33,839 nucleotides of DNA from a virus. Below are positions 2,693-33,839 of the stretch, piece by piece. The stretch covers positions 1 to 33,839 of IMG/VR virus record IMGVR_UViG_3300035698_027858; one strand, 5' to 3'. Each line of letters starts with the position of its first letter. Positions within the stretch are counted from its first letter, which is position 1. The notes under the pieces were generated by a model. It was given only the letters and a program-made list of their open reading frames with translations. It was not told the origin of the DNA and searched no databases. The position numbers and the translations under genes were made by a program.

Positions 2693-3979
2693 ATGAAAAA
2701 ACTGCCAACAAACAGAGTTATTTGTGGAAATGCGATAGAAATTTTACGAACCTTTCCAGCAGAAAGCATAGATACAATAATCACTAGTCCGCCTTATTGG
2801 GGGCTTAGGGATTACGGAACGGATCCAATCATTTGGGGTGGAGATGAAAAATGCAAGCACAATTTTAAGATTAAAGAAATATATCTACACAGAGGAACAG
2901 CCAAATCAACCGTTCAGGCCTCTGTCGATAGAAAAGGTGGAATCTCAACAGAGTGGAAGACAAAGGATGGATTTTGTAAGTGTGGCGCGTGGAAAGGAAG
3001 TTTAGGATTAGAGCCAACCTTTGATTTATATACAAAAAACCTTTGTGATATATTCGATGAAATTAAGAGAGTTCTAAAAAAAGAAGGAACTTGCTGGATT
3101 AATTTAGGAGATACTTACTCAGGGAACAAAAAAGGGAAGACAGATAAAAAAGTTAGTGATTACTTAAAAGATAATTCAAAAGGAATACATAAAAAAGCAA
3201 CAATAACTGAAAAATGTCTATGTCAAATCCCATCCCGCTTCGCAATAGAAATGGCAAATAGAGGATGGATACTCCGGAATGAACTAATTTGGCATAAACC
3301 TAATTGTATGCCCTCATCAGTCAAAGACAGATTTACAGTAGATTTTGAAAAGATATTCTTTTTTGTTAAAAGCAAGAAGTATTGGTTTGAAACGCAGTAT
3401 GAATCTTACGTAAAAAATAGTGATATGGCTTATAGAAAAAAATTGAGATGTGGTAGAAAATATGGAGTTAAGAGACCGTATCAAGACAACCAACCACTAT
3501 CGCATTCTAAAACATCAGCAATAGTTAATCCCCAAGGCCGTAACAAACGCTGTGTTTGGAAAATTCCGACCAAGCCATTTTCAAAAGCTCACTTTGCTGT
3601 ATTCCCAGAAGAGCTTATCAAAACTCCAATTAAGGCGGGTTGTCCGGAGTTTGTTTGTAAAAAGTGCGGGAAGGCAAGAAAACCAATCTATAAAAATACA
3701 CAAAAACAACATAGTATTGGTGCCACCTCTGGACTATATCATAAGGAGAGAAATTTTAAGGGAGATAATACGGTTAGAAATATGACCAAGCAAATCGGAT
3801 TAACAAATTGTGGATGTAAAGCAGGATTTGGGCCGGGAATAGTTCTTGATCCATTCATGGGCGCCGGCACAACCGCTTTGGTAGCTCGAAGTCTTGGCAG
3901 AAATTGGGTCGGTATAGAATTGAATCCTGACTATATCAAAATTAGTAAAAGAAGATTAGCTCAACAAGCTTTATTTTAA
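2693..3979 (+). CDS. DNA methyltransferase, SPPY type (probably N4-cytosine), with zinc-ribbon inserts
   Basis: The 428-residue protein opens with the methyltransferase core: GNAIEILRTFP, then motif IV TSPPYWGLRDYG (SPPY at 32-35). The SAM-binding motif I, LDPFMGAGTT, lies near the C-terminus (from residue 385), followed by GIELNPDYIKISKRRL. SPPY is typical of N4-cytosine enzymes, although some N6-adenine enzymes carry it. Two cysteine-rich inserts stand out: CKCGAWKG near residue 100 and CKKCGKARK paired with CGC after residue 320. They resemble zinc ribbons and may read the target or stabilise the fold. It differs from the upstream DPPY enzyme, so the phage appears to carry two modification specificities. 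No restriction endonuclease partner is present, as is usual for phage anti-restriction methylases. Confidence 0.85.
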   Translation: MKKLPTNRVICGNAIEILRTFPAESIDTIITSPPYWGLRDYGTDPIIWGGDEKCKHNFKIKEIYLHRGTAKSTVQASVDRKGGISTEWKTKDGFCKCGAWKGSLGLEPTFDLYTKNLCDIFDEIKRVLKKEGTCWINLGDTYSGNKKGKTDKKVSDYLKDNSKGIHKKATITEKCLCQIPSRFAIEMANRGWILRNELIWHKPNCMPSSVKDRFTVDFEKIFFFVKSKKYWFETQYESYVKNSDMAYRKKLRCGRKYGVKRPYQDNQPLSHSKTSAIVNPQGRNKRCVWKIPTKPFSKAHFAVFPEELIKTPIKAGCPEFVCKKCGKARKPIYKNTQKQHSIGATSGLYHKERNFKGDNTVRNMTKQIGLTNCGCKAGFGPGIVLDPFMGAGTTALVARSLGRNWVGIELNPDYIKISKRRLAQQALF

Positions 3980-16636: not shown

Positions 16637-18280
16637 ATGCCAAAATATCAGGTCTTAAAATTCAAAGCTGTCATCAGTCAAAACAATGACGACGGTAGAG
16701 AAAAGAATAACGAGACCTGGCATTCAGAGGGCAACACAGGGAATACCATAACATTCGGCAAATACGATGCAGTAGTCCAGCACGCCGCTTTTAGATTTAG
16801 AGACGTCAATATTCCCAAAGACGCAAAAATAATGCTGGCACGATTGAAATTGAAACCAGCTTACACCGACAGCGTAGATCCAGATGTGAAATTAATCATC
16901 AAAGGAATTAAAGAAGTAGATACAAAGCCGTTTGGCCAAGTCAGCAGACCAAGCCAAAGAGATAAGACTGTAAATAGTAAGGCATGGCATATTATCAAAA
17001 AGTGGGAAGTTCACGAATGGACGCAAACTCCGAATTTGCATTTGATTGTAGAGGAAATCGTTGCTCAAGCCGACTGGAAACCAGGAAACGCTATAGCTTT
17101 TGTCATTGAAGATAACGGTTCAACGGATGGACAAACCGAGACCTGCTGGGACAAAAGTAAAGGCGAAGGATATCAAGCAGAATTAGAAGTTTGGTATTTC
17201 GACCAAGAAGTAACCATTGGTTATTTGGCGGCTAACGACAGAGACGGCGAAGAGGATTATAAAACGACCTGGTATGGAGATGGGTTTGGGAATGCAATTA
17301 CCATAGGAAATGACGGGAGTGGTTTTTGTGACGGCGGGTTCATTTTTAGCGGAATAGATATTCCCAAAGGGGCAAGAATTATTTCAGCAGTATTACTATT
17401 AACTCAATCAGATCAGAACAACGCCTATCCTAATTTACTCATTAAAGGATTTGCCGAAGATAATGCCGCGCCATTTCAAATAGATGGGTCAAACAGACCA
17501 TCAATTAGGGATAAAACTATAGCTCAAGCAGAATGGTTTATCGGGGGTGGAGAAGGAGGCGTGATAGTAGGAGAACATTGGTCAGCAAATAGCATCTACG
17601 AATCACCAGAACTAAAAGAAATCATTCAAGAAATCATAGACAGGTCGGGCTGGACAAAGGGAAATAAAATCGGGCTGGTGATAGAGGACTGGAAAAGTCA
17701 CAACGGGAATTTCAAACTGCCATGGGATCATAACAAAAATAGCGGCGAGTTCCCTGCCAAATTAGTCATTGCTTGGCAAAGAAAAAGAATGGTTCAGACA
17801 ACGAAAAAAGATGTAGAAGGCTGGGAAAAAGCAAACTATCCAGAATTTATTATTGTCCACCATTCAGCCACCGCTAGAGATACCACTTATTTTGTAACTA
17901 TTAAGAATAACCACATTGGTTATGGTTGGGGAAATATTGGTTATCATTGGTGGATAGCAGGAGCGGATAGGGACGGTGAGTTAATACAAGGAAGACCAGA
18001 GAATAAAATTGGGGCTCATTGTTCAGCTAATAAAATGAACTATCGAAGTATAGGTATCTGTCTAAGCGGGGATTTCGAAAGCGCAGGATTAAATGAAAAT
18101 CCATCGGCTGCTCAGCTGGCAGTATTGCAAATAGCATTGGATGACCTTCGAAAGAAAAAAGGTATTCCAAAAGAGAAAGTGTTTGGACACGGTGAAGTGC
18201 CAGAGGCAACCACAGATTGTCCAGGCGATAACTTTCTGCCTTATATCCAGCAATATAGGAGAACGGGCAGTTTAACTTAA
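16637..18280 (+). CDS. Tail-associated N-acetylmuramoyl-L-alanine amidase with two N-terminal beta-sandwich repeats
   Basis: This 547-residue protein has three parts. Residues 5-190 and 195-385 are two repeats of the domain in the preceding gene (for example DDGREKNNETWHSEG, DRDGEEDYKTTWYGDG, KGIKEVDTKPF, SNRPSIRDKTIAQ, EIIQEIIDRSGW). Residues 390-540 are an Amidase_2/PGRP-like zinc amidase: FIIVHHSATA (zinc His about 408-409), GYHWWIAGADRDGELIQGR, GAHCSANKMNYRSIGICLSGDFE, and HGEV (His518) with TDCPGD (Cys528) as further zinc ligands, the T7-lysozyme-type H/H/C set. It cuts the bond between muramic acid and the stem peptide. Its place among the tail genes and the binding modules suggest virion-associated wall penetration rather than late lysis. 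Confidence 0.87.
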   Translation: MPKYQVLKFKAVISQNNDDGREKNNETWHSEGNTGNTITFGKYDAVVQHAAFRFRDVNIPKDAKIMLARLKLKPAYTDSVDPDVKLIIKGIKEVDTKPFGQVSRPSQRDKTVNSKAWHIIKKWEVHEWTQTPNLHLIVEEIVAQADWKPGNAIAFVIEDNGSTDGQTETCWDKSKGEGYQAELEVWYFDQEVTIGYLAANDRDGEEDYKTTWYGDGFGNAITIGNDGSGFCDGGFIFSGIDIPKGARIISAVLLLTQSDQNNAYPNLLIKGFAEDNAAPFQIDGSNRPSIRDKTIAQAEWFIGGGEGGVIVGEHWSANSIYESPELKEIIQEIIDRSGWTKGNKIGLVIEDWKSHNGNFKLPWDHNKNSGEFPAKLVIAWQRKRMVQTTKKDVEGWEKANYPEFIIVHHSATARDTTYFVTIKNNHIGYGWGNIGYHWWIAGADRDGELIQGRPENKIGAHCSANKMNYRSIGICLSGDFESAGLNENPSAAQLAVLQIALDDLRKKKGIPKEKVFGHGEVPEATTDCPGDNFLPYIQQYRRTGSLT

Positions 18281-26100: not shown

Positions 26101-29100
26101 AACAGGGAAGTTTAAGAGTGCGGAGGAGTTTGTGAAGGGAGTTGATATTACATTAAAAGAGAAGCCAATCACTTTATTTAAGGGAATTGGTGGTGACCAA
26201 CCAAATATAAATATAATGGCTCGTGGGACTCATTTTGCTGATAATCCAAATGTCGCTCGTAAATATGCAAGAACACCAGACGATATTCGTGTTATGACCT
26301 TACGAGATAGCGCTAAAGTAGCAAATTTAGATGCGATTAAAGTATTTCTTAGAGAAAAAAGACAAATAGCAAATACAGAACAAATAACAAAAGCTCTTAG
26401 AGATAAAGGATATGATGTCGCACGAGGGAGCTTACCGACTGGTGATTTTGAATATATTGTATTAAATAATAAAGCCCTTAAGTCATTATACGATCCACGA
26501 GGCAAAGGAATAGCACAACTTTTGAAAATAGAATCTTTTGATACACCCGTCATAAAAAAAGCTCAAAAACAATTAAGACAAGCTAAAGGAAAGGCAAATC
26601 AAGGATTTTTTGAACAAAGAATTATTGCCTTAAGAGAAGGAGCCCTTGCTGAACAACAACTATTGCCACCAGTATTGTCGAAAGCCAGGTCAGAAAAAAT
26701 TCCAAAAGACGATTTTATAGAATCGCTTAAAGAAATAATGAAGCCCGATGAGTTTACTAAAGCAGCCGGAAAGACAGCCGAAAAAGAACTAGTAATAATG
26801 GACAAGATTCCCAAAGGCGGAAAAGCGATCAGGTCAAAGCCATCGGCTGTTTCAATAAAGAAGTTGGCTCGTGATGTAGAAGCCCTTGGCGGTTTAAAAG
26901 AAATAGATATTAAAGAGTTAAATGAACTTGGCGGCTATAATTTCAGTAACATAAAGGAATTAAAACGGACTTTAGGTAAGACAACAGAGAAAATTAGCAG
27001 AAAAATATTAAAAGAATCAGAGCCATTAACGGCAACAGAAGAAAAAATAATGGAAAAGATGTTTGAGAAAGAATTTCAAAAAGTGAAAAAGACAGCCGAA
27101 GGTGAATTGTTTAGCAGTATTAAAGCATTAGGCGGAATCAAGCCATATCAAAAAAGGTTTTTAGTAGAAGAAATGTCAGGCATCCCGCCAGAATTACTCA
27201 ATAAAAAAGGCGGCGGATCTGTCATAGACGAATTGATGACAGAACTTAATGAAGTCGGCGGATACAATTTTGCCAGCGAGGCGGAATTGATAGAAGCCAT
27301 TAAGAGTATCAAAACTGTCGCAGAAAAAGTCAGCACGAGAGCCAAAGAGAAAACATTGAGATTGATTGGCAAAGCGCTGCCTAAGAAAGAAAAAGCAGCT
27401 AAGATATCGCAGCGCCTTTTGAATAAGCTGCATAGAGCAAGATACGAATACATACCTGCCGAAGCAAAAGCTATTCGCAGGGTAATGGAAACAGGAAAAT
27501 ATAAACCAATAAGAGAATGGCTACCCCGACCGACCAAACCATACAGAGAAGGGAAAACCCCGCCTGCTATAGCCAAATATGTCTCTGGCAAAATTGCCGA
27601 AACACTAAAGCCAAAAGCCAGATTCATTAAAGTATTCAAAGACCAGAAAGAAACGCTTAAGTTTCGTCCCGACACGATTAAAAGCGCAATTAGTAGATAT
27701 GGCAACATTATTCCAGAAAGTGAGCTGTATGATTACGAAATAGCTTATGCTCAAAAACAGCTTAGAAAAGTCAAAGGATACACTTCCAAAATAATCGCCA
27801 GCTTGAAAAATTCTGGTGTGAGAGATGAGATTGTTAATCAGTTAAAGGTAGAAAATAAATATCTAAAGAACTTGGTGAAAGTGAAAAGAGAAGAGACAGG
27901 CGAGATTAGCGCCACCATTTCACAAAAGGCATTGGATTATATTAAGAGAACCAGGCAATTTAAAGTGTCAGATAAAGAATGGATTAAAAAAGTTAGCTTT
28001 GAAAATATTGGTAAGGAAACAAAAAATATCATCCAGGGATACGAAACTGGCAAGAGATTCTTTAGAAGATTAGGAAAAGGATTTGAAGAATTGATTTTCA
28101 ATCCTATTAGGCGGGGTGAACGATTGGCCAAAGAGCGAGAGGTGTATTTGAAGAATATAAGATTAAGATCCGTTTTTAATTTATCAAAAAAGGAAGCTAA
28201 AGAACTATTTGCTTTTACAGCTAACAAGCAGGGTAGAAAGATTGAAGCTAAGTCCTGGTCCGAATTAAGTCCAAAAGTCAAAAAGGCCTATACGGACATC
28301 AGGCGAACAACCGAAGAATTGTACCCAGAAGTTAAAAGAGTGACCATTCTGCGAGGCAGGGAAATTGGCGAGGTCAAAAATTATAGTCCGCTCTACACAA
28401 CAAGAGACATCAAACGACTTGATGAAGGTGGTTTGTTTGATTGGTTGCGCAAAGATCCTTACTTCGGTTCAATAAAAGAAAGGATAGAAGAAGTGCCGAT
28501 TGGAGTTTACGAGCAGGATTACCGCAAGGTTATTGACCAATGGATACATGGAGTATCCCGTTATATAGACATCGGTAAAAGGACTGTGCCGGTTAAATAT
28601 CTAATTGACAGCAAGGAATTCCAAGAGATTGCTGGCAGCGAAACGCATAAAGCCATAATGGAATGGTATCGCTATATAGTTAATCCTCCTAAAGTAGAAG
28701 GAGCTTGGAAGGGATTAAGAGTTTTAAGAAACTTGCAGGCCTCGGCAATTTTAGGGCTTAGATATACCGTTCCTCTAAAGCAGTTTATCAACTTAGTGGA
28801 TTTTTGGACGGTAAGTGGAATAAGGAACTTAGCCAAAGGTGGATGGAAGATTCTAAGGAAATCGCCATTGGCCAGATTAGCCAAGACATCTGGCAGTATT
28901 CAAGAAAGAACAATGGGACTAACTATCCAAGATTTGAAGAATACTATTATTAGATGGATGAGAAAACCGCCCGAATACACAGATAGGTTAACTGCCCGAA
29001 TGGGAAAGGTGGCTTTAATTGACCAGCAGTTAGCGAGGATAGAACAAGAAGGCAAAAGGATAACGCCTAAGCTTCTAAAGAACGCAGAGAAAAAGCAGAT

Positions 29101-29110
29101 GATGTCATAG
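23171..29110 (+). CDS. Giant polyvalent internal virion protein with ADP-ribosyltransferase-like and papain-like segments
   Basis: The 1,979-residue protein is of the large polyvalent type injected with phage DNA. Parts in order: a Gly/Ala-rich amphipathic region (residues 75-230); a metallopeptidase-like segment with LIEELTHAKQ (E624, H628; the first His of HExxH is Glu here); a papain/NlpC-like segment with GECYEQG (Cys689), GHAWVE (His726) and VIDVS (Asp737); an ADP-ribosyltransferase-like segment from about residue 822 (VFHQTG, ILKEGFQTG, RGAIYAAG); a second one from about 1000 (ITLFKGIGG, RGTHFADNPNVARKY, FEYIVL); helical linkers; and a C-terminal membrane-interacting region (LQASAILGLRYTVPLKQFINLVDFW). 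A GTG at 23123 is possible but ATG at 23171 follows the folded leader. The last part continues in the -1 frame after a G-AAA-AAG site at 29089. Confidence 0.75.
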   Translation: MPSFWEQITSPFKNVSKTIGKWFKPKPENKAMTFEVGTGLTPGQRMTAEKKIEEMTKPITPLKHETTKQLFGVGERVSPIPEATTGALKGMATGAVKGLTLGYWFPKFKKTEIEEKAAKLTRPIGELESWLIPFGAAEKGLALMGKLALKAPKIAKIAKIGTKVTPGLIKKMAKVALPFGAISALERPAEGQTREEAMIHGALFGAAFPLTGAALKPITKPMMKVAGKVLKRLAKKPATIIIKELPKEEQDILKTLGIKGETLAKDIYERALRVTAGIKEVAEKTKPKAVVSPIKKETRRVVNPEIEKIVRKKGEVITIPSKISLKAGEKAIAIDEVKKAIEPYMKIEGGYGFINQGKKEGTIKLAKEIADLGYKPQIVSHPAIKITYTVRPYKLGYGCDGSTSGNVVLLAKDMAKKKGLDFEAIAKKVYPDEPQLKFIKDLEKNFAKETIIPETWGKKEIEMVIRDLHEINYHSLADTLKKAVKKAPKIKPPTKSSVKPIAYTPGGIPVYAGELKIKPKVKSAEKYIHSEKLEEELETAYRTFERVDTTSKDVINAGKIGKFITDPKVRKQYKDVLDTTLYIKPQHHMRKNVLGTLSVDPKGNPAIVLSDGIVADSLDRTLIEELTHAKQYKKGIRPTKDVPYKEMPEEIRAKKAAKHFAPRTTIEDVIEAKSKVKLKAEAMKPTGECYEQGFDYIRKHMDDKSLRLVHGNVTGQGKIKGVRYGHAWVEKGDIVIDVSRGNKKYPKDFYYALGKIKESEVRRYAPKQVMEMAVKIKHYGPWEVPEPKAKLKAISQKLQPLAKEARKYKNVEEFVDNIQNKGSIVFHQTGDIQANKILKEGFQTGKDLNIGERRGAIYAAGNKVNDKLYSRTGVREIFEGQKPAKIAINIEGLKLYNATAHDIESNIGSAIVKGDLSKLPKGFDGSIQYLENGDIYQIALPPRLATKRIINLTDFYNQAVREIERVAPKELESLVKGTGKFKSAEEFVKGVDITLKEKPITLFKGIGGDQPNINIMARGTHFADNPNVARKYARTPDDIRVMTLRDSAKVANLDAIKVFLREKRQIANTEQITKALRDKGYDVARGSLPTGDFEYIVLNNKALKSLYDPRGKGIAQLLKIESFDTPVIKKAQKQLRQAKGKANQGFFEQRIIALREGALAEQQLLPPVLSKARSEKIPKDDFIESLKEIMKPDEFTKAAGKTAEKELVIMDKIPKGGKAIRSKPSAVSIKKLARDVEALGGLKEIDIKELNELGGYNFSNIKELKRTLGKTTEKISRKILKESEPLTATEEKIMEKMFEKEFQKVKKTAEGELFSSIKALGGIKPYQKRFLVEEMSGIPPELLNKKGGGSVIDELMTELNEVGGYNFASEAELIEAIKSIKTVAEKVSTRAKEKTLRLIGKALPKKEKAAKISQRLLNKLHRARYEYIPAEAKAIRRVMETGKYKPIREWLPRPTKPYREGKTPPAIAKYVSGKIAETLKPKARFIKVFKDQKETLKFRPDTIKSAISRYGNIIPESELYDYEIAYAQKQLRKVKGYTSKIIASLKNSGVRDEIVNQLKVENKYLKNLVKVKREETGEISATISQKALDYIKRTRQFKVSDKEWIKKVSFENIGKETKNIIQGYETGKRFFRRLGKGFEELIFNPIRRGERLAKEREVYLKNIRLRSVFNLSKKEAKELFAFTANKQGRKIEAKSWSELSPKVKKAYTDIRRTTEELYPEVKRVTILRGREIGEVKNYSPLYTTRDIKRLDEGGLFDWLRKDPYFGSIKERIEEVPIGVYEQDYRKVIDQWIHGVSRYIDIGKRTVPVKYLIDSKEFQEIAGSETHKAIMEWYRYIVNPPKVEGAWKGLRVLRNLQASAILGLRYTVPLKQFINLVDFWTVSGIRNLAKGGWKILRKSPLARLAKTSGSIQERTMGLTIQDLKNTIIRWMRKPPEYTDRLTARMGKVALIDQQLARIEQEGKRITPKLLKNAEKKQMMS

Positions 29111-29118
29111 ACGCGGTC

Positions 29119-29829
29119 ATGGGAGCAATGTCTAGAGCAGAGACGCCACGATATTTTAAAACCGAGTTAGGCAAAAATATCAATATGTTTTACTCCCAGC
29201 TTAATTCTAAGATGCAATACTATGTCAGTGATATTTTCGCCAAGCAATATCCAGAATTAACTAACTTTCTAAAAACAGGAAATAGAAAAAAGTTATTAGC
29301 CAAAGCGATTACAGCGCTGATAATAGGTGGTTATATAGAAACATCTATTAATAAATTGGCTTTCATAGACGATCCCAAAGAAATAGGGAAAGATACATTG
29401 AAAGCAATCGCAGGAAACTTTCCGCTTGTAGGTTCGGTTGTATTTGCTTTAACCACGGAACAGCCGTATTCACCTATGCCTATACTAGGAAATACTACCA
29501 AACTGATGCAGAACATAGCGCAAGGAAGAACAGAAGAAGCTATTTGGACAGGGACTGGTTTTTTGGGAATGCCTCAACAAATAAAAAAAACAACTCAAGG
29601 AATAAAAGCCGTCAAAGAAGAAGGGGTAACAACGAAGGAAGGAAGATTAAAATATCCTGTGAAAGGATTTTGGGAACAATTTAGAACAGTATTGGCAGGG
29701 AAGTATGGGTCAAAAGAAGCCAGAAAATATTTCAGAGAAAAAGATAAAAAAGACAAAAGCGAATTTGATTACCTATATGATCAGACTAAAAGAAAAACAA
29801 GTAATAAATTTGATTATTTATACAGATAA
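29119..29829 (+). CDS. C-terminal part of the giant internal protein, in the -1 frame
   Basis: The frame is open from 29071, and the residues before the ATG at 29119 read KADDVIDAV. Joined to the preceding frame at lysine codons 29090-29095 this gives NAEKKADDVIDAVMGAMSR, the normal continuation of large polyvalent proteins (a helix with A-D-x-V followed by an F-x-x-Q-x-N helix, here MFYSQLNSKMQYY). The 236 residues include two hydrophobic stretches (KAITALIIGGYIETSI, GNFPLVGSVVFALT), YSPMPILGN and a lysine-rich tail with two copies of FDYLY. So this is probably the real C-terminus of a protein of about 2,220 residues. An independent restart at 29119 is an alternative. Neither a homopolymer error nor programmed frameshifting can be excluded. 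Confidence 0.6.
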   Translation: MGAMSRAETPRYFKTELGKNINMFYSQLNSKMQYYVSDIFAKQYPELTNFLKTGNRKKLLAKAITALIIGGYIETSINKLAFIDDPKEIGKDTLKAIAGNFPLVGSVVFALTTEQPYSPMPILGNTTKLMQNIAQGRTEEAIWTGTGFLGMPQQIKKTTQGIKAVKEEGVTTKEGRLKYPVKGFWEQFRTVLAGKYGSKEARKYFREKDKKDKSEFDYLYDQTKRKTSNKFDYLYR

Positions 29830-29843
29830 TCGAATCAAGTTAT

Positions 29844-30035
29844 ATGAATGAATTAACTTCATTAGCTCAATATGGATTAACAGGCATAGCGATAGCGCTT
29901 ATTGTCGCCATTGTTGTTATTGTTAAAGTGTTTATGAATTTTGTAAAAAATCATATGCAGCATAATACCAGAAGCAATCAAAGATTGGCAGATATGATTG
30001 AGATGCTTGTTGATTTCTTAAAAAATCATAAATAA
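29844..30035 (+). CDS. Holin (probable), single membrane segment
   Basis: The 63-residue protein has a short N-terminus, one hydrophobic segment (residues 9-32, QYGLTGIAIALIVAIVVIVKVFMNF) and a charged helical tail (MQHNTRSNQRLADMIEMLVDFLKNHK). This is the layout of class III-like small holins that form membrane lesions so that endolysin reaches the wall. It is the first gene of a compact lysis cassette and is followed by a motif copy and the amidase. Function follows from size, topology and context. Confidence 0.72.
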   Translation: MNELTSLAQYGLTGIAIALIVAIVVIVKVFMNFVKNHMQHNTRSNQRLADMIEMLVDFLKNHK

Positions 30036-30042
30036 AGGTCGA
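30034..30042 (+). repeat. AAAGGTCGA motif, copy 8
   Basis: It overlaps the holin stop (TAA at 30033-30035) and lies 23 bases before the endolysin ATG. Confidence 0.7.
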
Positions 30043-30065
30043 ATAAGTAGAAAGCTAAAATTATT

Positions 30066-30632
30066 ATGAATATTGAATTCATACCTTCAAAAAACTTTTT
30101 TTCAAGAAGTGGTCATAAACCAGAAATCATCGTCATTCACATTATGCTCGGTTCAATGAATGGTACGATTTCGTGGTTTAAGAATCCCAATTCTCAGGTT
30201 TCAGCTCATTATCTTGTGAGTAAAGATGGTCGGGTGGTCCAGATGGTCAAAGACGAAAATGCGGCTTGGCACGCTGGCAGAATATATAAACCAGCAGAAA
30301 GAGTAAAAAGAATTCTGAAAAAGAACATTTGGGGAAGATACATTAATCTCAATAAATACTCGTTAGGGATTGAATGTGAGGGTCAGGACGGCGATCATTG
30401 GACAGAACCACAAATGAAATCGTTAGTTGAGTTAATGAGAATCCTTTGCGCCAAATTTAATATTTTTCAGGATCGTTTACATATCACTGACCATCAAGAC
30501 ACCACCTCATACAAGCCACAGCTCGATACTTGGGTTATTGAAATCATTAGACGTCTTCATCAGCCAGAGGTCGAAGAAGATAACCGAGAAAAAATTAAAG
30601 AGCAAATAATTGAATTAGTTAAAAAATTATGA
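30066..30632 (+). CDS. Endolysin, N-acetylmuramoyl-L-alanine amidase (Amidase_2)
   Basis: The 188-residue protein is a single Amidase_2 domain with a short helical tail. Features: IIVIHIMLGSMNGTISWFKNPNSQVSAHYLVSKDGRVVQMV, where His25 is the first zinc ligand; ENAAWHAGR (His69); SLGIECEGQ; and ITDHQDTTSYKPQLDTW with His143 and Asp154 as the other ligands (compare the usual GH....rKxDPG). It cleaves the amide between muramic acid and L-Ala, releasing progeny. The C-terminal 25 residues are a charged helix without a known wall-binding repeat. It lies between the holin and a second small membrane protein, whose ATG overlaps its TGA by four bases. Confidence 0.9.
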   Translation: MNIEFIPSKNFFSRSGHKPEIIVIHIMLGSMNGTISWFKNPNSQVSAHYLVSKDGRVVQMVKDENAAWHAGRIYKPAERVKRILKKNIWGRYINLNKYSLGIECEGQDGDHWTEPQMKSLVELMRILCAKFNIFQDRLHITDHQDTTSYKPQLDTWVIEIIRRLHQPEVEEDNREKIKEQIIELVKKL

Positions 30633-30835
30633 GTACACCACAAAAACAAGCATTAAAACATTTATTAATTGTCTTTGCTTATTCAGGAGCTTCCTCAATT
30701 CTGCCAATAATAATAGCGTGGATACAGAATGACACACGCTGGGTAATTTTGATCCCGATAATCAACTCTATCTGGTATGCAGTAACGAGATATTTAAAAG
30801 AAAAGAAGTTGATTGAGGGTGAGGTTGCCAATTAA
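30629..30835 (+). CDS. Small two-segment membrane protein of the lysis cassette (second holin or antiholin-like)
   Basis: The 68-residue protein has two hydrophobic segments: HLLIVFAYSGASSILPIIIAWI (residues 10-31) and WVILIPIINSIWYAVTRYL (38-56), with a short loop NDTRW, and a charged C-terminus. It starts within the endolysin stop (ATGA overlap), so expression is coupled. The topology is that of class II holins or antiholins. With the one-segment holin at 29844 it could form a holin/antiholin pair; which is which cannot be decided. It is the last clear phage gene before the DGR. Confidence 0.65.
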   Translation: MSTPQKQALKHLLIVFAYSGASSILPIIIAWIQNDTRWVILIPIINSIWYAVTRYLKEKKLIEGEVAN

Positions 30836-31110
30836 CAGATTAGTTGCTAAACTCAATATGAAAGTAGGCTACTGTATCTCGATTCACGGATCGAGGTCGC
30901 CGAAATCCTAAGTCTCTAAAATTGCCAGAATCATAGTAATTACGGTTACTATGAGCGTGCAAGAGAGATTTTAGATACTACTTACTGGTTCTTGGAGCGG
31001 GTGTCTTTTTTGACTGCCGCCAGATTAAATACAGGGAGTTTGAGTATATAGGGCTTTTTGCCAGTAAACCTCTGCTTCCAGTGACATTGGATGAGAATCA
31101 GTAAAATTAG
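30836..31110 (+). other. Non-coding TR leader with structured RNA
   Basis: No gene is supported in this 275-base stretch. It contains a hairpin CATAGTAA (30932-30939)/TTACTATG (30946-30953), flanked by TCTAAAAT (30914-30921) and ATTTTAGA (30967-30974), which could form an outer stem. The 12-mer AGTCTCTAAAAT at 30911 returns at 31231, just past the template repeat. The stretch likely is the 5' part of the DGR template RNA; no convincing promoter was found. Confidence 0.5.
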
Positions 31111-31234
31111 GGTTCCCGCTACAAGAACGCGGACAAGGTGCCGAATGTCTACCTCAATGACGACAAGCCGAAGCTCAATTGGAACAACGCCGACAACTCG
31201 AATGACAGGTGGGGTTCCGCCTCGTGTCGTAGTC
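31111..31234 (+). repeat. DGR template repeat (TR)
   Basis: The 124 bases align without gaps to 33127-33004 on the - strand. There are 17 differences, 15 at TR adenines (33 A in TR), plus G31208 to T and T31227 to C in the variable copy. The TR is rich in AAC, AAT and AAG codons in the target's frame, which allow wide diversity when A is replaced. The A-free 3' block 31210-31230 has the character of an IMH-star. It is preceded by an in-frame stop, so it is not itself translated. Confidence 0.93.
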
Positions 31235-31253
31235 TCTAAAATCATAATTTACA

Positions 31254-31284
31254 AAAAAGCGTCCAATTGGAGGACGCTTTTAAT
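31254..31284. terminator. Bidirectional terminator between TR and avd
   Basis: AAAGCGTCC (31256-31264) pairs with GGACGCTTT (31272-31280), with an A/T-rich flank on both sides (TTTTAATTT on +, a T-run on -). It ends TR transcription on the + strand and avd on the - strand; the avd stop codon (TAA, - strand 31282-31280) lies in it. Confidence 0.75.
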
Positions 31285-31639
31285 TTAGAGACCTGATCCA
31301 GCCGCCGAGCATTCGGCCGATTTCCTGAATCTTTTCTTCTAGATTTAGGTATTTTTTATTATCCAGCATCTTAAACTCTCGGGCCATCCTAAGTAAAACC
31401 TTTAAAAGATCAAACTTATTGTTTGCTTCTAATAGTTTTGCCTTTTTCTCTTGCTTATACGAGCTGACTGCGGATAATATCAATTCCATAAAATCAATAA
31501 TATTTTCCTCGCATTTCTTGCCCAGCATGTGTTGATCTTTTTTAGGAAAGGTTTTTAAACACTCATAAAATTCCTTATAAAGATCAGTAGTTTTTTTAAG
31601 GATTGGCGCTTCGCTTTGAATTTGGTCTAAATTTTGCAT
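31280..31639 (-). CDS. avd: Avd-like four-helix accessory protein of the DGR
   Basis: This 119-residue protein is the accessory variability determinant. Family signs: PILKKTTDLYKEFYECLKTFPKKDQHMLGKKCEENIIDFMELILSA, the FPK[KR]D-x-x-x-L-G-x-[RK] block of S23/bAvd proteins, a helix AKLLEANNKFDLLKVLLRMAREFKML, and the ending KKYLNLEEKIQEIGRMLGGWIRSL, which is nearly diagnostic. Avd forms a basic pentameric barrel that binds the reverse transcriptase and template RNA and is needed for mutagenic copying. Its strand is opposite to the reverse transcriptase, with only two bases between the two start codons, whereas in many DGRs they lie in one direction. No Shine-Dalgarno site is visible, so leaderless start or a promoter within the other gene is expected. 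Confidence 0.92.
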   Translation of the reverse strand: MQNLDQIQSEAPILKKTTDLYKEFYECLKTFPKKDQHMLGKKCEENIIDFMELILSAVSSYKQEKKAKLLEANNKFDLLKVLLRMAREFKMLDNKKYLNLEEKIQEIGRMLGGWIRSLN

Positions 31640-31641
31640 AT

Positions 31642-32691
31642 ATGAAGATTTATAAAAACATTTTTAAGGATATAATTTCAATGGAGAATTTGCTTTTGGC
31701 TTGGGATGAGTTTAAGAAAGGCAAAAGAGAAAAGCTGGATGTTCAGGAATTTGAATTTCATCTGGAGGATAATTTATTTGCCCTTCATCAAGAATTAAAA
31801 AGTAAGAGATACAAGCACGGCGAATATGTTGATTTTTATATCAATGACCCGAAAAGAAGGCATATTCATAAAGCGACAGTCAGAGACAGAATCGTCCATC
31901 ATGCTATCCATCTAAAACTCTATTCTATTTTTAATCCGACCTTTGTTTATACTTCCTACTCATCCCGTAAAGAAAAAGGAACCCACCGGGCAGTTATTAA
32001 ACTGGATAAGATGTTAAGGACTGTTTATCAGACTTATGGTAAATGTTTTGTATTAAAATGCGATATTAAGAAATTCTTTCCAACTATTGATCATAAAGTA
32101 TTAATGAAAATTATTGCCAAACGGATTAAAGATAAAGATGCTTTGTGGCTGATAAAAAAGATTGTCAAAAGCTTTGAGTCGGAATTTACCACCAAGAGAG
32201 ATAAAAAAGGAACCCCAATTGGCAATTTGACTTCTCAAATTTTGGTTAATATTTATATGAATGAAATGGATCAATTTATTAAAGACCAGCTCAAAGCAAA
32301 ATATTATGTCCGTTATGCTGATGATTTTATTGTTGTTCATCGTAACCAGGATTATTTGCTGAATTTAAAGAGTCAGATTCAATCTTTTCTCAAAAAGAAT
32401 CTAAAACTATCACTTCATCCGGGCAAAGTCACTATTCGTAAATACTACCAAGGGGTTGATTTCTTGGGTTATGTAATCTTGCCCAAAGCCATTGTTTTAA
32501 GAACTAAAACTAAACAGAGAATTTTTAGGAAATTGAGACAAAGAGTAAGGGAATATAAACAAGAAAAAATAGATGAGAAAACCTTACTGCAATCGTTTAA
32601 TTCTTATCTGGGAGTATTGAGTCACGCCAAGAGCTACAAGCTTGAGCAAGAACTAAAACACAAAATGTGGGAGTGGCTTAAAGAAGATTGA
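31642..32691 (+). CDS. DGR-type reverse transcriptase
   Basis: The 349-residue enzyme copies the template RNA into cDNA with errors opposite adenines. The N-terminus (MKIYKNIFKDIISMENLLLAWDEFKKGKR) and LEDNLFALHQELKSKRYKHG match DGR reverse transcriptases. Motifs: RDRIVHHAIHLKLYSIFNPTFVYTSYSSRKEKGTHRA, FVLKCDIKKFFPTIDH (first catalytic Asp), GTPIGNLTSQILVNIYMNEMDQF (motif 4 with GNLTSQ from residue 194; the Q in SQ is typical of DGR enzymes), YYVRYADDFIVVHRN (YADD at 225-228), HPGKVTIRKYYQGVDFLGY and a thumb domain. A TTG frame extends to 31603, but ATG at 31642 fits the family length. It lies on the same strand as the TR, with avd inverted between. Confidence 0.95.
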   Translation: MKIYKNIFKDIISMENLLLAWDEFKKGKREKLDVQEFEFHLEDNLFALHQELKSKRYKHGEYVDFYINDPKRRHIHKATVRDRIVHHAIHLKLYSIFNPTFVYTSYSSRKEKGTHRAVIKLDKMLRTVYQTYGKCFVLKCDIKKFFPTIDHKVLMKIIAKRIKDKDALWLIKKIVKSFESEFTTKRDKKGTPIGNLTSQILVNIYMNEMDQFIKDQLKAKYYVRYADDFIVVHRNQDYLLNLKSQIQSFLKKNLKLSLHPGKVTIRKYYQGVDFLGYVILPKAIVLRTKTKQRIFRKLRQRVREYKQEKIDEKTLLQSFNSYLGVLSHAKSYKLEQELKHKMWEWLKED

Positions 32692-32700
32692 AATAAAAAA

Positions 32701-32843
32701 AGGGACAGCCGAGACCTGCTGCCCACATTGACTGAAACCCCAAAGGGCTCCAATTGTGGAGGACCAGCTGCCCCTTTCAGTCCACAATTGGACTAAAAAG
32801 AAACAACGGCCCATTGGTGGTATTCCCAATCAATGTAGGCAGC
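32701..32843. other. Folded intergenic domain between DGR reverse transcriptase and target, with interlocked element 4
   Basis: No gene is present in 32692-32995. The outer stem 32718-32731 pairs with 32830-32843 (14 positions, one C-A mismatch, one G-U). Within it, pair A GACTGAAA (32730-32737)/TTTCAGTC (32775-32782) and pair B TCCAATTGTGGA (32749-32760)/TCCACAATTGGA (32781-32792, perfect) are interlocked, with A2 and B2 overlapping by two bases. A further hairpin ATTGG/CCAAT lies at 32813-32830. An alternative GGG-CAGC/GCTG-CCC hairpin exists at 32702-32724. Confidence 0.55.
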
Positions 32844-32879
32844 GCTTTTATTGTACTATAAAGATTATTAAAAATAAAG

Positions 32880-32907
32880 AAGGGTAGATCATTTTTGATC
32901 TACCCTT
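32880..32907 (-). terminator. Strong intrinsic terminator of the DGR target gene
   Basis: AAGGGTAGATC (32880-32890) pairs perfectly with GATCTACCCTT (32897-32907) around a six-base loop. Read on the - strand it is followed by TCTTTATTTTT, a good T-tract; on the + strand no T-run follows, so it serves the target gene. Confidence 0.85.
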
Positions 32908-32911
32908 TAGG

Positions 32912-32953
32912 TGCGCGTTTAGCGCAAAAATTTGTAGCGGTCGCCTTCGGCGA
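32912..32953 (-). other. Pair of small GC-rich hairpins downstream of the variable repeat
   Basis: TCGCC (32941-32945)/GGCGA (32949-32953) makes a five-base stem with a three-base loop, and TGCGC (32912-32916)/GCGCA (32922-32926) a second. They lie 51 and 78 bases past the end of the VR. DGRs often need a short GC-rich hairpin or cruciform just downstream of VR for retrohoming; the first one is a candidate. Confidence 0.5.
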
Positions 32954-32995
32954 AAACAAGGAACAAGAAACCAAAAGGTCCAAAGTGCCAAGAGC

Positions 32996-33724
32996 CTAAG
33001 CCCGACTACGGCACGAGGCGGAACCCCACATGCCATGCGAGCTGTCGGCGTAGTGCCAAAGGAGCCTCGGCCAGTCGTCATAGAGGTAGACAATCGGCAC
33101 CTCGTCCGCGTGCCTGTAGCGGGAACCCGTGCTCCAGAGATAGTGATCTGACAACATATCTGTGTGAACACAGACAGCGATGTCTTCGTCTGTAATGTGG
33201 CGCAGACGGTTCTGCTTCTTGATGATCTTCTCCGCGTCTTCTGGCGATTTACCAAGAGTGGCTTTCCCGGGCTCAACATCGTAGATGAAATACGGATTCT
33301 TCGGAATTTCTTCATTGTCGGTCATCTCATTCGGATCAAGATAGGTATAACCTATCTTATCGTCATTGCGGACCATAGGCATGAGTCCGTAGATACCCAG
33401 ATAGGAATGGGGTATCACTGGTACGAACGGGATGTTTCCTTCGGGAATTTCCATCTCGGCCGCTTTGGAGAGTACCTCACTCTTTTTGTTCTGGAACGCT
33501 TCCAGAATGGCTTGAGGACAATTCCGGGATTTCAATGTTTCCATCTGGCCGTCAAACAGCTTAACTAATCCATTTTTGCGATCCTCAATCGTTTCGGCGT
33601 TGGCTTGCTTCTTGGCCTCTGCCACCACATCATCGATTACTTCGACTCCCAAGCCTTTAAAAAAGGCCGTCAACTTGGCAATCAACCCTTCTCGCTGATC
33701 CTTGCACAAATCTTTCTTTGTCAT
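32996..33724 (-). CDS. DGR target protein, DUF5701-like, with variable C-terminal domain
   Basis: The 242-residue protein has a helical N-terminus (KDLCKDQREGLIAKLTAFFKGLGVEVIDDVVAEAKK), a conserved middle (MEIPEGNIPFVPVIPHSYLGIYGLMPMV, YFIYDVEPGKATLGKSPEDAEKIIKKQNRLRHITDEDIAVCVH) and a C-type-lectin-like variable end from residue 200: GSRYRHADEVPIVYLYDDW to WGSASCRSRA. The GSR..VP....PxLxW..A....WGSAS pattern is shared with DUF5701 proteins. No signal peptide or membrane segment is visible, so a cytoplasmic or released protein is expected. Base composition is richer in GC than the phage genes. AAGGAGG (33732-33738 on the - strand) with seven bases to ATG fixes the start, and a consensus promoter precedes it. 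The name DUF5701 is from memory of the family's pattern. Confidence 0.85.
   Translation of the reverse strand: MTKKDLCKDQREGLIAKLTAFFKGLGVEVIDDVVAEAKKQANAETIEDRKNGLVKLFDGQMETLKSRNCPQAILEAFQNKKSEVLSKAAEMEIPEGNIPFVPVIPHSYLGIYGLMPMVRNDDKIGYTYLDPNEMTDNEEIPKNPYFIYDVEPGKATLGKSPEDAEKIIKKQNRLRHITDEDIAVCVHTDMLSDHYLWSTGSRYRHADEVPIVYLYDDWPRLLWHYADSSHGMWGSASCRSRA
33004..33127 (-). repeat. DGR variable repeat (VR)
   Basis: The 124 bases at the 3' end of the target gene are the diversified copy of TR 31111-31234. Thirteen codons carry A-directed changes (for example AAG to TGG and AAT to CTT with two each). The target's stop lies five bases beyond the VR. The A-free end TGGGGTTCCGCCTCGTG acts as the presumed IMH; its single T-to-C difference from TR fits IMH versus IMH-star divergence. 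Confidence 0.93.
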
Positions 33725-33731
33725 GACAATA

Positions 33732-33738
33732 CCTCCTT
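33732..33738 (-). promoter_or_regulatory. Shine-Dalgarno site of the DGR target gene
   Basis: AAGGAGG on the - strand, seven bases before the ATG at 33724. It is a full-strength site, unlike the leaders of the phage genes. Confidence 0.9.
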
Positions 33739-33805
33739 GTTGGATTTTGGTTTAAAGAATATTCTTATTTCAAGGTCCAAATTTATTCAGTTTTACCTTG
33801 TTGCT

Positions 33806-33834
33806 AATATATCATAATGTAGTACTTTTGTCAA
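33806..33834 (-). promoter_or_regulatory. Consensus sigma70 promoter of the DGR target gene
   Basis: On the - strand, TTGACA (33834-33829) and TATATT (33811-33806) are separated by exactly 17 bases. Transcription should start near 33799, giving a leader of about 75 bases. The promoter is at the window's right edge and points back towards the reverse transcriptase. Confidence 0.8.
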
Positions 33835-33839
33835 GAAAA

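Follow-up and report, generated by a model that had tools for sequence, protein, structure and literature searches.

To our knowledge, all functional work on diversity-generating retroelements (DGRs) concerns a single system, that of the Bordetella phage BPP-1 (NC_005357), in which a reverse transcriptase (bRT) and the protein bAvd accompany a template repeat (TR) and a variable repeat (VR), the latter within the gene mtd. These components lie on one strand, in the order avd–TR–Sp–RT, where Sp is the spacer. Synthesis of cDNA in this phage is primed by an adenine internal to the spacer (PMC12875486), and VRs of the BPP-1 type are followed by a hairpin with a GRNA loop (PMC3240598). According to the sections of a further paper drawn on here (PMC8144416), DGRs are enriched in Patescibacteria, and those of DGR clade 2 are almost entirely cellular, with targets that typically possess no recognizable domains; the same sections describe no RNA architecture for the clade.

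We analyzed a DGR cassette on a virus contig, the whole of which, all 33,839 bases, we call the window (Table 1). The window encodes a terminase, a portal/adaptor, a major head protein, tail-fibre and lysis genes, with the cassette directly after the last of these, at the contig end. (It also encodes two separate Amidase_2 proteins, one of 547 aa in the structural region, at 16637–18280, and one in the lysis cassette, at 30066–30632.) As a DGR, the element is of a known kind. What appears to be new is a permuted, splint-type template RNA, together with a different homing-site element, belonging to the Patescibacteria lineage. The unusual part of the cassette—the structured RNA upstream of TR, the inverted avd gene and the missing spacer—is absent from an earlier, sequence-only reading of this DNA. 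We did not find the permuted RNA described in the open papers searched, a set that included neither the 2017 survey of CPR nor the cryo-EM study of BPP-1.

Table 1. Features of the DGR cassette and its carrier (positions are those of the window)
Feature	Position	Strand	Remarks
Virus record IMGVR_UViG_3300035698_027858	33,839 bases		DGR cassette at contig end
Promoter-like site, TTGCCA-17-TAAACT with TG extension	30825..30853	+	A single site, where shuffles would give 0.8; weak by itself
Predicted template RNA: folded 5' domain, then TR, a short tail and the terminator	30862..31281	+	Ends approximate
Helices P1/P2, YUACGG-type loop	30864..30903	+	Covariation helices 1, 2
Helices P4/P5, second YUACGG-type loop	30922..30962	+	Covariation helices 3, 4
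Splint strand	30967..30993	+	Ha 30967-30975 (pairs with 31235-31243), Hb 30977-30981 (with 31229-31233), Hc 30982-30993 (with 31093-31104)
Helix P6	30994..31023	+	Covariation helix 6
Helix P7	31034..31079	+	Covariation helices 7, 8
TR 5' flank	31093..31104	+	12 bp with Hc
TR	31111..31234	+	124-nt gapless alignment with VR
TR 3' end and tail	31229..31243	+	TR 3' end 31229-31233 pairs with Hb, tail 31235-31243 with Ha
Terminator-like hairpin, then T run	31256..31280	+	-12.6 kcal/mol
avd	31280..31639	-	119 aa, bAvd PF22296; convergent with TR
DGR reverse transcriptase (RT)	31642..32691	+	349 aa
CTT(TT)G array	32957..33003	-	Period about 8 nt; directly downstream of VR
Target gene	32996..33724	-	242 aa; DUF5701 (PF18959) C-terminal domain
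VR	33004..33127	-	In frame at target C terminus

That the cassette is a DGR with adenine-directed variation had been proposed already, and is borne out. The coordinates given for TR and VR, their gapless alignment, the 33 adenines of TR and the 17 differences were all reproduced exactly. Fifteen of these differences fall at TR adenines (P=1.3e-8 for 15 or more, hypergeometric test), six being A to G, five A to T and four A to C. The two non-adenine differences, G31208T and T31227C, had been counted correctly, but they are best read as mutations of TR that arose after the last homing, because the TR of L019, a closely related chromosomal cassette, has A and C at these sites. The A-free block that had been described is real (31208–31230) and lies near the 3' end of TR. 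The assertion that substitution makes no stop codons is mistaken, however: four AAG codons of TR can become TAG.

The element had also been called active-looking. On an evolutionary time scale this is supported, judging from L019, the VR of which has diversified independently. All 24 differences between TR and VR in L019 are at adenines, and the two VRs differ from each other at 20 of the 32 positions where both TRs have A, but at none of the 82 where both share another base. Differences confined in this way to TR adenines indicate that the two lineages were each mutagenized on their own. Very recent homing in the window itself is less well supported, since its VR predates two TR mutations and has thus not been overwritten after them. 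No second VR was found in the 33,839 bases of the record. Two other loci, L072 and L084, each have one TR with two VR candidates.

Both proteins of the cassette were recognized in the sequence-only reading, and both are clear. RT matches RVT_1 (2e-26) and phrog_1423 (4e-117) and belongs to the DGR RT group; Avd matches bAvd PF22296 (1e-23) and phrog_3206 (7e-23). RT matches in Patescibacteria genomes are often split at residue ~181–188 (G133:C3, G026:C1 and G154:C11, for example), which suggests an insertion there in a subgroup of RTs. The VR stops a few codons short of the end of the target gene, in frame, and so occupies the C terminus of its protein, as it does in BPP-1. As to a C-type lectin or similar fold, the target has no PDB match, and its predicted model, built from a shallow alignment of five sequences, has a pLDDT of 41.6; no relatives of the target were found in viral contigs. 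We considered DUF5701 as a general DGR target and rejected the idea: its best non-DGR relatives (G225, G252) occur in genomes without a matching RT, which suggests a domain that was recruited, instead. Between RT and the target, at 32700–32840, the window contains short inverted repeats (CCAATTGTGGA / TCCACAATTGG) and repeated words (CAGCTGCCC/CTGCTGCCC).

In this cassette, and in about 60 relatives, TR is predicted to form the 3' portion of a structured non-coding RNA of ~420 nt. Upstream of TR lies a conserved, non-coding 5' domain of ~250 nt, the 5' half of which is shortened in some subgroups. The homology of this RNA to L019 begins at 30858, and a TATAAT-like box is found in many relatives at about the same place as the promoter-like site of the window. 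RNAalifold, applied to 16 aligned sequences, gave 62 consensus pairs, 48 of them with compensatory changes. By direct count, 94.0% of cells are paired, compared with 71.9% in shuffles and no more than 48.6% when the partners are slid, and 243 cells are double changes, compared with 78 in shuffles. None of 4227 Rfam models matched the stretch 28000–33839 at E values up to 1. The YUACGG-type loop has the same sequence in two hairpins of the window (30884–30889 and 30940–30945), as it does in most relatives; these twin loops are possibly twin protein-binding sites.

Two further pairings tie the 5' domain to TR. The strand that follows a conserved ACUNCUU anchor pairs with the sequence directly 5' of TR (Hc, 12 bp; native versus swapped partners, z=-16.8, 62 loci). 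The partners of the strand immediately upstream of that anchor are the 3' end of TR and the tail beyond it (Hb and Ha; z=-11.8). Other stretches tested for pairing with the TR 3' end gave z values from +1.6 to -5.0, and the one at -5.0 overlaps the splint. Our permutation tests preserve the make-up of columns but not the full phylogeny; nevertheless, the size of the z values and the want of signal elsewhere argue against mere relatedness as their cause. When the window sequence is folded alone and unconstrained, Ha and Hb are kept but Hc is not (optimum -129.7 versus -128.3 kcal/mol). Taken together, the alignments show what is predicted to be one continuous splint, with TR as a loop of ~125 nt that would bulge from a single long helix.

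BPP-1 and the window share RT, Avd, and an adenine-specific TR/VR pair, and in both a splint strand pairs with the 3' end of TR and with its 5' flank. In BPP-1 this strand is in Sp, 3' of TR, whereas in the window it is 5' of TR. The predicted partner of Sp 48–54 is the TR 3' end, and that of the stretch from Sp 57 onward is the 3' end of avd, which forms the TR 5' flank; between them lies A56, which we take to be the priming nucleotide. Among loci of the BPP-1 type (n=46), the second stretch covaries with the end of avd (z=-10.8), but the duplex of Sp 48–54 with the TR end displays little covariation of its own (z -1 to -2), and for this reason the case for permutation leans more heavily on the second stretch and on where the primer is known to lie. 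The Patescibacteria template RNA looks, then, like a circular permutation of that of BPP-1: the geometry is the same, but the order along the RNA is different.

What lies on the other side of TR also differs. Nearly all close relatives are arranged TR(+), avd(-), RT(+), avd and TR converging, unlike BPP-1, where avd is not inverted; in distant relatives avd is on the plus strand, upstream of TR. Inversion of avd removes the usual spacer. The hairpin that the sequence-only reading had noted downstream of TR is present, but it resembles a terminator between the convergent TR RNA and avd rather than a homing hairpin. A first, loose scan for terminators was uninformative (57/62 loci, against 54% in shuffles); an energy-based scan, used in its place, found a hairpin with a T run at least as strong as -8 kcal/mol in 49/62 loci but in only 1/62 shuffles, at a median of 12.5 nt after TR. 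The TR RNA of the window would end ~45 nt after TR, unlike that of BPP-1. A terminator so soon after TR, coupled with a convergent avd, leaves no room for a priming spacer of the BPP-1 type, and the window cassette has no structured spacer 3' of TR on the same RNA, between TR and RT. Could these nonetheless be ordinary DGRs of the BPP-1 type, the RNA reading through the hairpin into a spacer antisense to avd, and the upstream RNA a leader for transcription or stability? BPP-1, the known functional system, does prime from a downstream spacer (PMC12875486), and in 13/62 loci the terminator is weaker than -8 kcal/mol. But most loci have a terminator-like hairpin ~13 nt past TR, avd ends within tens of nucleotides of TR on the other strand, and compensatory changes support a specific pairing of the upstream RNA with each end of TR, something a mere leader would not need. 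We consider this explanation very improbable.

It seems to us quite likely, instead, that DGRs of the Patescibacteria type make their own template RNA of ~420 nt, with a continuous splint that pairs with both TR ends and with priming close to the Hb/Hc junction. The template would be transcribed as a separate RNA comprising the folded 5' domain of ~250 nt, TR, a tail of ~20 nt, and the terminator. RT and Avd would bind the folded 5' domain, and cDNA synthesis would begin on the TR 3' end. Its primer would be a 2'-OH in or close to the Hb/Hc junction (30981–30983), where, by analogy with the spacer adenine of BPP-1, the primer should be; synthesis would end at the Hc helix. The nucleotides at this junction are C and U in the window, not A; the priming nucleotide must therefore differ from that of BPP-1. 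There is no conserved adenine at the junction, and this is one of the points in favor of another possibility, namely that the splint organizes the RNA and stops the cDNA, but that the primer is a different molecule or end, such as nicked target DNA or the 3' end of a cleaved RNA. The polarity of the strands would equally suit a 3'-OH released by cleavage at the Hb/Hc junction, and a 2017 PNAS paper cited in PMC12875486, going by its title, reportedly has priming by a nicked template RNA. We regard a primer of this kind as unlikely, however, because BPP-1 primes from an internal spacer adenine (PMC12875486) at the equivalent junction.

The VRs are marked differently, too. A GRNA-loop hairpin occurs within ~34 nt after VR in 45/56 loci of the BPP-1 type, but in 0/62 of the Patescibacteria type, the window included. 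CTT(T/TT)G motifs follow the VRs of the latter, instead, spaced mostly 7–8 nt apart, although at some loci the array is missing. Their density after VR is 2.97 per 80 nt, versus 0.64 in shuffles and 0.42 after TR, and among the 13 arrays of at least four motifs in 587 kb, 11 come directly after VR; as the motif was chosen after the sequences had been seen, these figures are descriptive. A hairpin with a CTTG-type loop after VR, considered as a substitute for the GRNA hairpin, was discarded: such hairpins occur in 27/62 loci versus 11 in shuffles when the stem is at least 4 bp, but the excess fades at longer stems. One locus, L046, has a five-motif array at 3128 (+), outside the VR that we used; perhaps it follows a second VR. 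Adenine-mutagenized cDNA would home into the VR of the DUF5701 protein, where a TR-like 3' block and the array of CTTG motifs would mark the site. The fuller proposal—a circularly permuted RNA in Patescibacteria DGRs, with a 5' splint that both sets the two cDNA ends and primes, and a CTTG array as a different homing-site element—we think probable, though less firmly so than its core.

To survey the distribution of these elements we used a covariance model, R1, that covers the RNA from the splint to TR. R1 matches loci left out of its building, with scores of up to 95.8 bits; a search of 18 loci of the BPP-1 type gave no hit. Across 287 genomes of the phylum R1 has 69 hits, in 55 genomes, and 56 of these hits are 472–595 bp upstream of RT, on the same strand; RT itself is found in 84 of the genomes. 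In the RT tree, the permuted type occupies one side of a branch (91/91). The closest relatives of the virus contig lie in Patescibacteria, and the RTs closest to that of the window are likewise from Patescibacteria or from MAGs of that kind, as in DGR clade 2 (Roux et al. 2021; Patescibacteria/CPR), to which we assign the window DGR by taxonomy rather than by placement of its RT in the tree of that study. Clade 2 is mostly cellular, to judge from the sections cited above (PMC8144416), but the window copy is on a viral contig.

Whether it is properly a phage gene is another matter. L019, in a Patescibacteria MAG (JAHJOV010000034.1), is 86% identical to the window over 2995 bases, from the RNA start to the contig end (RT 90%, target 87%), but its flanks are unrelated and look chromosomal, between LCP-type and signal-peptidase-like genes (annotated by eye). 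What the two share is confined to the cassette, from 30858 to the end of the contig. Its place at the contig end follows directly on the lysis genes, RT is missing from three related viral records, and in one, L209, an integrase follows the endolysin, all of which would suit a cassette that is host DNA beside the end of a prophage, the window spanning a prophage–chromosome junction. The break, however, falls precisely where the template RNA begins, which is unlikely for an attachment site, and a 62-kb viral contig, L004, has a DGR of the same type ~2.7 kb from a major capsid gene, such that phages do carry this type. We think a host origin possible, but somewhat doubtful. On L004, and on another viral contig, L003, a VWA-domain gene and then an AAA_5 (MoxR/CobS-like) ATPase lie upstream of the DGR.

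The mechanism of DGRs is known from one phage of Proteobacteria, and the RNA that primes there cannot, as placed in that phage, exist in the cassettes of Patescibacteria. The permuted RNA offers a testable second solution to how DGRs start copying, and it supplies the exact nucleotides to mutate. It also points to a template RNA of ~420 nt that is compact and self-contained, and the R1 model finds DGRs of this kind independently of RT. A splint that holds both ends of TR is probably essential; the position of the splint is probably not. If we are right, then what is conserved in the initiation of these elements would be a geometry in which TR bulges as a loop from a splint helix, and not the order of the RNA.
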